Of a DNA stretch of 64,000 nucleotides, positions 22,909 through 49,007 are shown in pieces. This DNA comes from Actinomycetota bacterium (GTDB lineage: Bacteria > Actinomycetota > Actinomycetes > Mycobacteriales > HKI-0501), in assembly GCA_030840805.1 (NCBI GenBank), contig JAVEDU010000055.1:62001-126000 (forward strand), given 5' to 3'. How positions within the stretch are numbered: the first letter of the stretch is position 1; the number at the start of each line of letters is the position of its first letter. A model generated the notes under the pieces. That model saw only the letters and a program-made list of their open reading frames with translations. It had not been told where the DNA came from and ran no database searches. Made by a program: the position numbers and the translations under genes.

Positions 22909-23001
22909 GGAGGCGTTCGGGTAGCTGGTGCTCCCCGCGGTCTTCAACACCGTAGTGGCCGAGCATCTCGGTCAGGCGGGTTCGATTCCCGTCCGCCTCC
23001 G
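22909..23001 (+). tRNA. selC: tRNA-Sec (anticodon TCA)
   Basis: 93 nt. The acceptor stem starts GGAGGCG and pairs with CGCCTCC; the next pair (T/C), which would complete the 8-bp stem of selenocysteine tRNAs, is a mismatch. The anticodon stem GCGGT/ACCGT encloses CTTCAAC with anticodon TCA at 22944-22946, which reads UGA. A long variable arm GGCCGAG-CAT-CTCGGTC and a TTCGATT T-loop follow. Discriminator is G, and CCA is not encoded. The long extra arm and TCA anticodon identify tRNA-Sec. It lies 21 bp before selA and 61 bp after the ABC operon; a weak -10-like GATACT lies at 22878. Confidence 0.93.
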
Positions 23002-23022
23002 CTCCGCAGTTAGAGTTTCCCC

Positions 23023-44993: not shown

Positions 44994-45151
44994 GGTCGAC
45001 CTCCCGCCGGAGCAGTGTCGCCCGATCATCGTCCCCGGCGGCCCGGCTGTCACGGGAAGGTGCGAGCGTTCCGGGCCGGCATCGGGCGACTGCACGGTGG
45101 ACAGCGCCGACGGACCGACCCTCGTCCGCCGCCGCTGACCGGCCGATCCCG

Positions 45152-45418
45152 TCAGCCGCGCAGTTCCGGGAACTGGTCGTCGCGCCATTCCCGCGCCAAC
45201 TCCGTGCCGGTGTCCGCGGCGTCGCGCTCACGACCCCGGAGCTCGACCCGGCGGATCTTGCCGGACATCGTCTTGGGCAGGTCGGCGAACTCCAGCCGCC
45301 GCACCCGCTGGTACGGCGCGAGGTGGTCGCGGGCGTACCGCAGGATCGCCAGGGCCGTCTCCCGGTTCGACTCCCATCCTGCGGCCAGGGTGACGTAGGC
45401 CTTGGGAACGGCCTGCCG
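45152..45418 (-). pseudogene. C-terminal remnant of an AMP-binding acyl-CoA synthetase
   Basis: The minus frame ending at TGA 45152-45154 reads VPKAYVTLAAGW, then ILRYARDHLAPYQRVRRLEF, DLPKTMSGKIRRVELRG (A10 motif with the catalytic Lys) and REWRDDQFPELRG. This is the last 85-90 residues of a typical actinomycete acyl-CoA ligase. Sequence similarity ends abruptly near 45418 with no start codon or upstream domain, so the rest of the gene has been lost. It is not a copy of the synthetase at 54491, whose C-terminus differs. Confidence 0.8.
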
Positions 45419-45420
45419 GG

Positions 45421-45511
45421 TCGGCGCGGCCCTGGAGCTGCGGAGCCTCGGCGCCGACCGGCGGGCGCCGACCTGGGCGACGCGAACCTGACCGGCGCAA
45501 CGGGCCGGTAA
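45421..45511 (+). pseudogene. possible remnant of a pentapeptide-repeat gene
   Basis: On the plus strand, one frame reads ALELRSLGAD and, after a one-base shift, another reads GADLGDANLTGATGR followed by TAA at 45509. A(D/N)LxG pentapeptides of this kind form the C-terminus of pentapeptide-repeat proteins. The segment directly abuts the truncated acyl-CoA synthetase end, suggesting a deletion or recombination scar just before the duplicated gene cassette. Short, so tentative. Confidence 0.4.
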
Positions 45512-45520
45512 CCCGGCAGG

Positions 45521-45550
45521 TTGCCATTCGGGGTGCCGTGGCCGTACTTA
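45521..45550 (+). promoter_or_regulatory. candidate promoter of copy 1: TTGCCA-N18-TACTTA
   Basis: TTGCCA at 45521-45526 and TACTTA at 45545-45550 are 18 bp apart, 57 bp before the copy 1 ATG. The second copy has TTGCCA-N18-TACTAC at nearly the same distance, and both read GGTTGCCA. The spacer sequences differ while the boxes are kept, which favours a functional promoter. A 13-bp direct repeat (CCACCGCCGAGAC at 45561 and 45579) lies between it and the gene. Confidence 0.5.
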
Positions 45551-45606: not shown

Positions 45607-45993
45607 ATGGGTGTCATCGATAGCTGGTTCCGTCGGCCCGGGCCCCTGTCCGGATGTCGTGCCGAGGCGGTCGACATCGTCGCCCACTGGCTCACCCCGG
45701 ACCTGGTCCTCACCCTCGGCAGCCTCCACGAGGCGCCACCCGCCGTCGCCGACGCGGTGGTACAGCTCTTGCCGTTCGGATCCCGGGCCGCCCTCGAGGA
45801 GCTCGGACTGGCCCTTCCCGGTACGGACGGCGCCGACCGGGGCAGGCGCCCGGTGACACTGGCCCCGCTCGCGTACGAGGTCATGGCCGTCGCGTCCGCC
45901 CGGATCGAGCCCGGCCCCGCCGAGGCCGACGAGTGGACCCGCCTCGCCCAGCGCGCCGCCCACCCCGGTCAGGCCTCCAACGGACAGCAGTGA
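45607..45993 (+). CDS. duplicated unknown protein, copy 1
   Basis: 128 residues, soluble. N-terminus MGVIDSWFRRPGPLSGCR, then a core almost identical to the protein at 48627. I do not recognise a family; the segment VVQLLPFGSRAALEELGLALPG..RRPVTLAPLAYEVMAVA resembles a winged-helix plan (helix, strand pair with LTPL.Y), so DNA binding is a possibility. ATG at 45607 follows ACTGGAG; an in-frame GTG lies directly before. Part of the sigma-like gene cassette and preceded by a promoter motif shared with copy 2. Confidence 0.85.
   Translation: MGVIDSWFRRPGPLSGCRAEAVDIVAHWLTPDLVLTLGSLHEAPPAVADAVVQLLPFGSRAALEELGLALPGTDGADRGRRPVTLAPLAYEVMAVASARIEPGPAEADEWTRLAQRAAHPGQASNGQQ
45651..45985 (+). repeat. 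direct repeat, left copy (about 335 bp)
   Basis: Matches 48671-48999 at about 98%: I count seven substitutions and one 6-bp indel (loss of two codons in the right copy, around GAGCCCGGCC). Identity drops sharply toward the 5' ends of the two genes and after the stop codons. The copies are direct, 3,020 bp apart, and flank the sigma-like and membrane genes, so homologous recombination between them would delete the intervening genes. Confidence 0.93.
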
Positions 45994-46015: not shown

Positions 46016-46039
46016 GCCCGGGGTTCCTCAGCCCCGGGC
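46016..46039. terminator. convergent terminator hairpin between copy 1 and sigma-like gene
   Basis: GCCCGGGG and CCCCGGGC, perfect 8-bp arms with an 8-nt loop, 23 bp after the copy 1 stop. The stop of the convergent sigma-like gene (46028-46030) is in the loop. No T-run. Probably terminates both transcripts. Confidence 0.55.
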
Positions 46040-46648
46040 TTCGTGCTGGAGGTAGACCCCGAACCGGCGCAGGGCATCGGCCACCCCGGTGTGGCTGATC
46101 GTCCCCAGCTTGCCGGCGATGGCCCGGTTGCTGGGTCGCCGTCCCGATCGGGCCGCCTCGTCGAGCAGGCAGGTCGCCACCTGGAACGCGGTGGTGTCGC
46201 CCTTGCTCCGCGCCACCGCCAGTGCCGATCGCACCAGGTCGGCGGTGGCCGCGCGGTCGATGGCCAGGGCGATGTCGTCGTCTCCGGCCAGCTCGGGCAG
46301 CAACGCCGGCTCGGAGAGAACCTCGCGCCGATTCCGCGTGAGCACCCGGAGGTGGTCCAGGGCCACGGACCGGCAGACCGCCCACAGGTACCCGGCGGGC
46401 TGCCGGGCGGCGTCGAGCCTCCCGTCGGCCATGACCCGGAGGAACCGGATCATCACCTCGCTGGCGACGTCCTCCACCTCCTGCACCGTCAGGTCCCGGA
46501 AGCGCCCGCGTACGTACCGCCGCACCTGGCGGTTCGCCTCCCCGAAATCCCGGTCCGACAGGGTCTCCGGGTGCTCGGCCATCCGTCGGGCGAAGGACGC
46601 GAAGTCGTCGGAGGCCGTGACGCCGTCCGCGTCCTCGGGGTGGCTCAC
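46028..46648 (-). CDS. sigma-70-family (ECF-like) protein
   Basis: 206 residues. Residues about 45-110 match sigma region 2: RRYVRGRFRDLTVQEVEDVASEVMIRFLRVM followed by PAGYLWAVCRSVALDHLRVLTRNRR, with the DxxSE-like VEDVASE and the region 2.4-like arginine end. The C-terminal part RRPSNRAIAGKLGTISHTGVADALRRF is a helix-turn-helix where region 4 is expected, but divergent from ordinary ECF region 4. GTG start overlaps the upstream gene's stop by 4 bp, so it is translated together with the paralogous protein encoded at 46645. No anti-sigma with a zinc motif is seen. Targets could be the TGCCA-N18-TAC promoters nearby. Confidence 0.82.
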   Translation of the reverse strand: MSHPEDADGVTASDDFASFARRMAEHPETLSDRDFGEANRQVRRYVRGRFRDLTVQEVEDVASEVMIRFLRVMADGRLDAARQPAGYLWAVCRSVALDHLRVLTRNRREVLSEPALLPELAGDDDIALAIDRAATADLVRSALAVARSKGDTTAFQVATCLLDEAARSGRRPSNRAIAGKLGTISHTGVADALRRFGVYLQHEARG

Positions 46649-47271
46649 GGCCGCGCCCTCCGGGGGAGGCGGCAGGCGAACCGGAAGAGGAGCTTCTGCA
46701 CGGTCTCGGCGTCGATCCCGTCCCGGGCCAGCCGGTCCGCGACCTCCTGGAAGGACGGGGGCTGCCCGGTCCGCGCGCGCTGGTCCACGAAATCGGTGAC
46801 GGCCAGGAACGCCTCGTACTCCCCTGCCGTGCGCAGCTCGCGCAGGGCCGACCGGTAGCCGTCCGGATCGACGTCGTCGCCGAAGATCGACGCCACGACC
46901 TCCCGGTCGGTGGCCCCGACACTGCGGCGTGCGCCCTCGCCGGGCCGGGAGGATCCGGTGAGCCTGTCCAGGGCGATGTCGTCGAGCAGCCGGAACAGGT
47001 CCTCGGGCGGGGGCGGGCCCTCGGCCGGGTTCCGGGTGTAGAGGGGGACGAGGAACGTCACCAGGCCGGCCAAGACGATCTCGGCGACCTGGCCCTCGCG
47101 GAGCCGTCCGGCGAAGCGGATGCTGAGGTGCTCACAACAGCTGTCGTACAGCAGGACGTAGTGCGCCTCGCCGACGTGCAGCCCCTGCCGGCCGACCTGG
47201 GACCACACGGCAGCCACGGCCGAATACGCCTGATGGCGTGCCGCTTCACGCGTGCTGTCCGCAGTTGTCAT
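46645..47271 (-). CDS. sigma-like partner protein, divergent paralogue of the adjacent sigma factor
   Basis: 208 residues, not recognised by family at first sight. By eye it aligns with its downstream neighbour: IRFAGRLREGQVAEIVLAGLVTFLVPL with YVRGRFRDLTVQEVEDVASEVMIRFL, IALDRL with VALDHL, and FLAVTDFVDQRARTGQPPSFQEVADRLA with FQVATCLLDEAARSGRRPSNRAIAGKL. It therefore seems to keep both the region-2-like and the C-terminal HTH-like parts but lacks clear promoter-melting residues. First gene of a coupled pair; ATG at 47271 follows GAGGA. It could be a co-sigma (as RsoA is to SigO in Bacillus) or a negative regulator. Confidence 0.75.
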   Translation of the reverse strand: MTTADSTREAARHQAYSAVAAVWSQVGRQGLHVGEAHYVLLYDSCCEHLSIRFAGRLREGQVAEIVLAGLVTFLVPLYTRNPAEGPPPPEDLFRLLDDIALDRLTGSSRPGEGARRSVGATDREVVASIFGDDVDPDGYRSALRELRTAGEYEAFLAVTDFVDQRARTGQPPSFQEVADRLARDGIDAETVQKLLFRFACRLPRRARP

Positions 47272-47294
47272 CGATCCTCGACCTGCGCGAGTGC

Positions 47295-47324
47295 GTGCCA
47301 CCGCTGGTGCTCGGACTCTACGCT
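47295..47324 (+). promoter_or_regulatory. candidate promoter of membrane gene: GTGCCA-N18-TACGCT
   Basis: GTGCCA at 47295-47300 and TACGCT at 47319-47324, separated by 18 bp like the two TTGCCA-N18-TACT motifs before the duplicated genes. It is the weakest of the three. A second possible promoter, TTACCA at 47331 with ATATAC 18 bp later, lies just downstream and could be the ordinary one. Confidence 0.35.
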
Positions 47325-47390
47325 CGACGGTTACCACGAGACCCGAAAGGTTGGATATACGTCAGCTCGCCACCGTGAGAGGAGAAGCCG

Positions 47391-48065
47391 GTGTCGTCAC
47401 TCCTCATCGCGGTGCTCACGGCGACGTTCTTCGCCGTTTTCGGCTTCCCGTACCTCTTCTACCACTACTGGTTCAGCTGGGACCGGTGGGGAACTGTTGC
47501 CGGCAGCACCCTGTATCTGCTGCTCGCCGGAGTGGGCGGTGGGCTGCTCGGCTGGTCGACCGCCTACGCCGCGAGCGCCAAGCTGAGCGACCAGTTCGCC
47601 GTCCAGGGAGTGCTGTCCGGCATCCTCGGCACCCTGGCCATGCGTGCGGACTTCGGGACGACCCGCGCGAGACCCACGCCCCCCGGCACCGGCGCTGCCG
47701 ACGCCCGCGGCGCCCTCTCCCTGCTCGGCGCGAGCCTCACCTGGACCACCTCGCTGCTCGACCACCGGGCCCGCCATCAGGCCGAGCGCTGGTACCGGGC
47801 CCTCGACGACGACGCGCTGCTGCTCCAGGCCTGGGACGTCTATGTGCACATCCTCGACTGCGAGCTCCCCGCCCGGGCGAAGAGAGAGCTGCAGAAACGC
47901 CTGTCCACGGCGATGAGCATGGTCCGTGCCGGGTGCGACAAGACGACCCACGACGAGGGCCGCGCGCTCGTGGTCCAGTTCTGCGTCAGCTACTCCGGCG
48001 ACCAGCACCTGGCCAAACCGGCGGGTGGGCCGCTCACCGCCCGAGCCCCGGCGGCGGGCGGGTAG
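47391..48065 (+). CDS. two-helix membrane protein of unknown function
   Basis: 224 residues. Two hydrophobic helices at the N-terminus (SLLIAVLTATFFAVFGFPYLFY and STLYLLLAGVGGGLLGWSTAYAA), then a soluble, mostly helical domain of about 150 residues with DHRARHQAERWYRALDDDALLLQAWDVYVHILDC and two later cysteines. GTG at 47391 follows AGGAGA. It is divergent from the sigma-like pair and shares 119 bp of upstream DNA with it. A membrane-bound sensor or anti-sigma role for the pair is conceivable but unsupported by motif. The last 32 bp overlap the next, convergent gene. Confidence 0.78.
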   Translation: MSSLLIAVLTATFFAVFGFPYLFYHYWFSWDRWGTVAGSTLYLLLAGVGGGLLGWSTAYAASAKLSDQFAVQGVLSGILGTLAMRADFGTTRARPTPPGTGAADARGALSLLGASLTWTTSLLDHRARHQAERWYRALDDDALLLQAWDVYVHILDCELPARAKRELQKRLSTAMSMVRAGCDKTTHDEGRALVVQFCVSYSGDQHLAKPAGGPLTARAPAAGG

Positions 48066-48477
48066 CCGCCCCCGGACCGATCAGCTGCTCCGGGTAGCGG
48101 TACTCGCCGTCTCCCGACGCCCGCTCCCGGACCGTGAGCTCGGCGCGCAGTCGGATCACCCGGACGTCGTCGGGCTCGGCGGCATCCAGCAGCGAGCGCA
48201 GTTGCGCCCGGTCCGCGAGCGGACGCAGCGTCGCCGACAGCCGGCGCAGTGCGGCCGCCGCGACCGGATCCCGCCCCGCGAGGTCCGCGCCGTCGACCCG
48301 CTCGCTCCAGGCGCGCACCTCGGCCGCCCGCGCGACCGCCCCGGCACAGTCCGCCTCCGCCCGCCGGAGCCGCTCGGTCCGCGCCCACGGATGATCGGAC
48401 AGATACCACTCGTACGCCGCCCGGTCCGTCACGCTGTAGCCGGACAGGTCCGGGCCGGTCCACCGCTCGTCGAGCAC
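48034..48477 (-). CDS. soluble helical protein of unknown function
   Basis: 147 residues, charged and alanine-rich: DRAAYEWYLSDHPWARTERLRRAEADCAGAVARAAEVRAWSERV and later ALRRLSATLRPLADRAQLRSLLDAAEP, probably long helices. GTG at 48477 follows GGGGAGG. It overlaps the membrane gene by 32 bp at the 3' end. I recognise no family. Its coding frame has the high third-position GC of the neighbours, supporting a real gene. Confidence 0.65.
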   Translation of the reverse strand: MLDERWTGPDLSGYSVTDRAAYEWYLSDHPWARTERLRRAEADCAGAVARAAEVRAWSERVDGADLAGRDPVAAAALRRLSATLRPLADRAQLRSLLDAAEPDDVRVIRLRAELTVRERASGDGEYRYPEQLIGPGAATRPPPGLGR

Positions 48478-48626: not shown

Positions 48627-49007
48627 ATGGATGCGATCCGTGCGTGGTTCCATCGACCCGAACCATCGTCCGGACGTCGCGCCGAGGCGGTCGATATCGT
48701 CGCCCACTGGCTCACCCCGGACCTGGTCCTCACCCTCGGCAGCCTCCACGAGGCGCCACCGGCCGTCGCCGACGCGGTGGTACAGCTCTTGCCGTTCGGA
48801 TCCCGGGCCGCCCTCGAGGAGCTCGGACTGGCCCTTCCCGGTACGGACGGCGCCGACCGGTGCAGGCGCCCGGTGACACTGGCCCCGCTCGCGTACGAGG
48901 TCATGGCCGTCGCGTCCGCCCGGATCGAGCCCCCCGAGGCCGACGAGTGGACCCGCCTCGCCCAGCGCGCCGCCCACCCCGGTCAGGCGCCCAACGGACC
49001 GAGCTGA
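48627..49007 (+). CDS. duplicated unknown protein, copy 2
   Basis: 126 residues, MDAIRAWFHRPEPSSGRR followed by the core shared with the protein at 45607. Two codons are deleted relative to copy 1 (EPPEADE against EPGPAEADE), and the last residues differ (APNGPS against ASNGQQ). The N-terminal 18 residues are only about half identical, in contrast to the near-perfect core. ATG at 48627 with TGGAG upstream; an in-frame GTG precedes. Same possible winged-helix plan as copy 1. Confidence 0.85.
   Translation: MDAIRAWFHRPEPSSGRRAEAVDIVAHWLTPDLVLTLGSLHEAPPAVADAVVQLLPFGSRAALEELGLALPGTDGADRCRRPVTLAPLAYEVMAVASARIEPPEADEWTRLAQRAAHPGQAPNGPS
48671..48999 (+). repeat. direct repeat, right copy (about 329 bp)
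   Basis: Partner of 45651-45985; about 98% identical with one 6-bp deletion. The sharp borders inside otherwise diverged genes suggest gene conversion rather than a simple recent duplication. Confidence 0.93.

Follow-up and report, generated by a model that had tools for sequence, protein, structure and literature searches.

A putative ECF-like sigma factor and its overlapping degenerate paralogue in a rare four-gene cassette of Actinomycetes

Sigma factors are usually restrained by anti-sigma proteins that are unrelated to them. In literature searches, no pair of a sigma factor and a degenerate twin was found apart from the cases of SigO–RsoA and PhyR. The former, named also YvrI–YvrHa in Bacillus subtilis, represents one sigma factor divided between two adjacent genes, SigO carrying region 4 and RsoA region 2 (PMC8103513, PMC10028694). 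The latter contains a sigma-like domain with the ECF fold and degenerate promoter and core regions, which titrates NepR (PMC8103513). Kinases drive PhyR, which possesses, in addition, a receiver domain, the whole PhyR–NepR–EcfG system serving the alphaproteobacterial general stress response, whereas the cassette described here comes from Actinomycetes.

The window, i.e. the entire 64,000-nucleotide stretch of DNA that was analysed, contains two sigma-related genes, designated A and B (Table 1), which are adjacent to each other and presumed to act together, as in the case of SigO and RsoA. An earlier note on this DNA had reported that they overlap by 4 bp; the overlap is present, in the form of GTGA, with both reading frames lying on the minus strand, and it is consistent with translational coupling. 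The GC content at the third codon position (GC3), being 0.91 for A and 0.93 for B, fits real genes of a GC-rich actinomycete. The same window also carries a selenocysteine tRNA gene (22909–23002), so the organism probably makes selenoproteins.

Table 1 Coordinates of the features of the cassette in the window
Feature	Position	Strand	Remarks
Gene A	46645..47271	-	208 aa, ATG at 47271; degenerate full-length sigma-like protein
Gene B	46028..46648	-	206 aa, GTG at 46648; predicted ECF-like sigma factor
GTGA overlap, stop of A/start of B	46645..46648	-	4 bp, read from the sequence
Membrane-protein gene	47391..48065	+	224 aa, divergent from A; assigned by hydropathy
Divergent promoter region (A/membrane-protein gene)	47272..47390	.	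119 bp, against 98 bp in G. siccatus
Small-protein gene	45607..45993	+	about 128 aa, convergent with B
Small-protein gene, second copy	48627..49007	+	other side of the cassette

Concerning the conservation, the search with A led to an orthologue (E 6e-5) in Geodermatophilus siccatus DSM 45419, a member of another family of the same order, in which the same four genes are found in the same orientations—the membrane-protein gene divergent from A, B following A in the same direction, and the small-protein gene convergent with B. Conservation of the pair, the absence of which would have spoken against the earlier note, was thus seen in a second genus, both in order and orientation and in the overlap of A with B, which amounts to 17 nt in G. 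siccatus. Between the two species, the identity is 30% for the membrane protein, 27% for A, 37% for B and 47% over 89 aa for the small protein, while A has 208 aa in both genomes. The cassettes stand at unrelated sites, the one in the window being flanked by genes for an RNA helicase, a SnoaL-like protein and a TAP-like hydrolase, and that of G. siccatus by an ACC-deaminase-like gene and an oxidoreductase, both named by eye. No further cassettes were found in samples of approximately 400 genomes of the order, 395 of the class and 115 of the Geodermatophilus family; the plasmid searches with A, B, the B orthologue and the membrane protein yielded no match, nor did the searches of viral contigs, and the scan of genome contigs gave no match with A alone and only G. 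siccatus with the alignment of B. Other matches of B within the class were not accepted as cassette members, their aligned region looking like ordinary ECF sigma factors, and three matches of A (at L036, L040 and L048), with no sigma pair seen beside them, were set aside as apparently due to chance. With two carriers in incomplete genome samples, the cassette is thus rare and of patchy distribution, which suggests horizontal movement; the four genes would represent one rare regulatory cassette moving between genomes as a unit. That A is just a decaying functionless duplicate appears highly improbable: it does diverge faster than B, as seen from the identities given above, but its frame is open with the GC3 of 0.91 given above, and a protein of the same length occurs also in another family, both times upstream of and overlapping B.

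As far as the neighbours of the pair are concerned, the membrane protein contains two predicted N-terminal transmembrane segments (residues about 1–25 and 34–60), followed by a tail of ~150 aa that is probably cytoplasmic. It is a candidate sensor or anti-sigma protein, for which neither a family match nor a recognisable anti-sigma domain was found with Pfam and NCBIfam; these databases revealed no known anti-sigma family among the cassette genes. A membrane protein, YvrL, is encoded near SigO–RsoA, too, so that the two loci are alike in this respect. In the divergent promoter region, no conserved promoter word was recognised, the two species having no common word longer than 7 bases. A 147-aa reading frame on the minus strand (48034–48477), with a GC3 of 0.91 as in coding DNA but without a family match, overlaps the end of the membrane-protein gene encoding the tail, and no counterpart of it was seen in the cassette of G. 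siccatus.

The small protein, exhibiting the motif LHEAPxAVAxAxVQLLPFGSRAxLE, looks by eye like a winged helix. Its gene is present in this genome in two copies only, which lie on either side of the cassette as direct repeats, with identities of 93% over 300 nt and 96% over 70 nt; their central ~250 bp are near-identical and both ends are different, a pattern resembling that left by a recent gene conversion of paralogous copies. A weak match of the small protein (residues 68–115, E 0.0044) to the PADLOC model PDC-S09, a phage-defence candidate, was the sole hint of a defence function of the cassette, and this reading was dropped. The segment at 45000–45540, situated between the cassette and the SnoaL-like gene, shows no obvious minus-strand gene, the GC content at the three codon positions being 0.66/0.83/0.75; it may hold a decayed gene.

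A and B are paralogues across most of their length. Their Smith–Waterman score of 97, for a local alignment spanning from about A54/B47 to A207/B205, exceeds that of the shuffled sequences (34.3 ± 6.0; z 10.4) and was reached by none of the 1000 shuffles, and BLASTP aligned 71 C-terminal residues with 37% identity, both segments beginning at residue 137. The match obtained with hhalign for the profiles of the two orthologous pairs was collinear and covered 149 columns, with a probability of 89.5 and an E-value of 2e-6, the control with the membrane-protein profile being null (probability 0.3). In the whole genome of 4.46 Mb, the profile of B found A (E 3.3e-4) and that of A found B (E 0.007) as the best non-self match, i.e. 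ahead of the other sigma factors of the genome; these profiles included the G. siccatus orthologues, and the searches with single sequences gave E-values of 9e-4 (B to A) and 0.001 (A to B). The shuffles, the profile–profile match and the reciprocal best matches thus confirm the alignment of the two proteins that had been proposed by eye, and, since neither the profile searches nor the models revealed an unrelated fold, they support the view of A as a divergent sigma paralogue. The three sequence blocks named by the earlier note are by and large correct, their spacing agreeing just within 3–4 residues. The helix-turn-helix (HTH) block has the same numbering in both proteins (residues 166–173). 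The xALDxL block is present in both proteins with an offset of 4 (A 99–104, B 95–100), while RxxGRxR is not exactly common to them, A having RFAGRLR at 52–58 and B RYVRGRFR at 44–51, with RF52–53 of A set by the alignment against RF49–50 of B. It should be noted that, when A and B of G. siccatus were compared with each other, no similarity was detected (z about -0.3); in that species, the paralogy is supported by orthology and synteny instead.

The evidence from domains and conserved residues is best read as describing B as a working ECF-like sigma factor, predicted to initiate transcription at specific promoters. It scores 27.8 bits with Pfam Sigma70_r2 (PF04542; gathering cut-off 24), and its G. 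siccatus orthologue (P0005) 33.6 bits, plus a match to HTH_50 at the cut-off of that model. Its layout—sigma region 2 at residues 40–104, a linker and a C-terminal HTH at about 172–198—is that of the ECF (group IV) sigma-70 factors, unlike which, however, the HTH is matched by the HTH_50 and TyrR-type (HTH_TypR) models, no Sigma70_r4 match having been found with the Pfam and NCBIfam profiles. With reference to 28 actinobacterial ECF-like sequences picked by similarity to B, the protein keeps, in both species, the acidic residues of region 2.2 (positions 57, 59, 60 and 64), the aromatic residue 87 of region 2.3, as well as D98 and R101 of region 2.4, the net charge of its region 2.3–2.4 helix being +2 and +3 in the two species. 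The HTH is the most conserved part of B between the species (21 of 37 positions identical; motif PSNRAxAxxLGxSHTGVAxALRR), with the recognition helix SHTGVAxALRR nearly unchanged.

The structural models, of medium confidence (pLDDT 67.3 for A and 67.5 for B), display the same order of nine helices with a disordered linker at the same place, although they were built from alignments that do not overlap, the input for A consisting of A and its orthologue only. In B, helices cover residues 32–49, 55–74, 84–106, then, after the linker, 126–133, 136–148, 152–168, 174–181 and 186–205. In A, helices are located at 35–52, 59–79 and 89–105, and, beyond the linker, at 122–130, 136–149, 151–168, 174–183 and 188–199, its layout being sigma2-like helices at ~35–105, the disordered linker at 107–119 and sigma4-like helices at 122–199. 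The model of B is closest to AlgU, SigW, sigmaE, SigG1 and SigK (Z about 8), and the N-terminal half of A aligns mostly with chains of sigma domain 2 (Z 5–7); for helical folds, Z values of 5–8 are supportive yet weak by themselves and do not constitute a proof. With AlgU, the model of B aligns end to end (residues 21–206, Z 8.5), the rmsd of 11 arising because the domains are differently set, and its final two helices occupy the positions of the last two of sigma4. Foldseek found no match for either model at E ≤ 0.001. A kinship of the C-terminal half of A with RecX was rejected, for the ~52 residues involved form a three-helix unit that is a common helical arrangement.

With regard to the residues kept by B, A has Q/A/E/A in one species and D/R/D/S in the other at positions 57/59/60/64, and T or E instead of R at position 101, so that the acids of region 2.2 remain in part only, the conserved acidic region 2.2 and D/R of region 2.4 are not preserved, and most of the residues kept by B are gone from A in both species. 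The net charge of its region 2.3–2.4 helix is -3 in both species, the conserved recognition helix of B is lost, with only 9 of 37 HTH positions identical between the species, and the best-conserved part of A is the linker with the start of the C-terminal half (R..G..R.S..A.D.E.V...F..D.D....LRELR). This pattern, based on the two sequences from the two cassette genomes, suggests that A probably no longer has the core and DNA contacts for switching genes on, which fits the label of decoy paralogue used in the earlier note. It also speaks against A being another, independent sigma factor whose promoter specificity has diverged, a reading that is quite unlikely. Such a role would agree with the full two-domain layout retained by A and with its HTH region in the window, which has a net charge of +3 and resembles the HTH block of B; the corresponding region in G. 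siccatus has, however, a net charge of -3, the acidic residues of region 2.2, R101 and the positive charge of region 2.4 have been lost in both species, and neither a Pfam sigma match, for A and its orthologue, nor an NCBIfam match, for A, was found.

The possibility raised by the earlier note that the pair is a two-subunit sigma factor, A and B binding the core polymerase together, both being needed and A perhaps lending one domain, is fairly unlikely; for two full-length paralogues, it would be the more novel one. The genes overlap, would be co-translated and are conserved together, their products are alike in size and fold, and the existence of such sigma factors has been shown by SigO–RsoA (PMC8103513, PMC10028694). 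On the other hand, region 2 and an HTH are both present in B, which thus has no missing half to be supplied, and A is without the residues by which a sigma factor grips the core and DNA. A division of the SigO–RsoA type is not seen here, each of the two proteins having a region-2-like and a region-4-like half with the same order of helices; the pair was therefore not assigned to that system, the comparison serving as an analogy only.

The closest described logic to A would rather be that of PhyR, with which A, judged from its model, would have in common the full ECF sigma layout with degenerate promoter and core regions, located beside a true sigma factor. There are differences, too: no receiver domain was found in the 208-aa A with Pfam, and there is no NepR-like small anti-sigma protein found, the genes A and B overlapping and being accompanied by the divergent membrane protein. 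Since the pair is accompanied by the same two genes in a distantly related organism, A is probably a regulator dedicated to B. In the favoured, still tentative reading, B would function as an ECF-like sigma factor, while A, a regulator with the shape of a sigma factor, would act by mimicry, both being parts of a mobile four-gene cassette. A would have arisen from a duplication of B or its ancestor and lost the promoter recognition and the normal grip on the core polymerase, so that it would start no transcription by itself; A being translated first and B coupled to it by the overlap, both would be made together. A might then bind the restraining partner of B and so free B, by partner switching as in PhyR–NepR–EcfG, a candidate for that partner being the tail of the membrane protein whose gene is divergent from A, or A might cap B itself. 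Against this reading stand the facts that the membrane protein is divergent, not co-operonic, and has no recognisable anti-sigma domain, and that there are only two carrier genomes and models of medium confidence.

If A acted as a direct anti-sigma protein, binding B and keeping it off the polymerase without a third partner, this would agree with their co-production through the overlap, with the cassette having no known anti-sigma family and with the presumable ability of duplicated subunits to associate often still with each other. It is nevertheless unlikely, as ECF sigma factors are not generally known to dimerise and the conserved divergent membrane protein would be left without a role. 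That the pair is either an obligate heterodimeric full-length sigma factor or a partner-switch pair controlled by the membrane protein, so that the four genes would be a mobile signalling cassette of a kind undescribed in Actinomycetes, is possible, though doubtful. A sigma factor that is held back or helped by a degenerate copy of itself would represent a compact switch made of one overlapping gene pair, and it would offer a small portable system for testing how duplication yields sigma mimicry.
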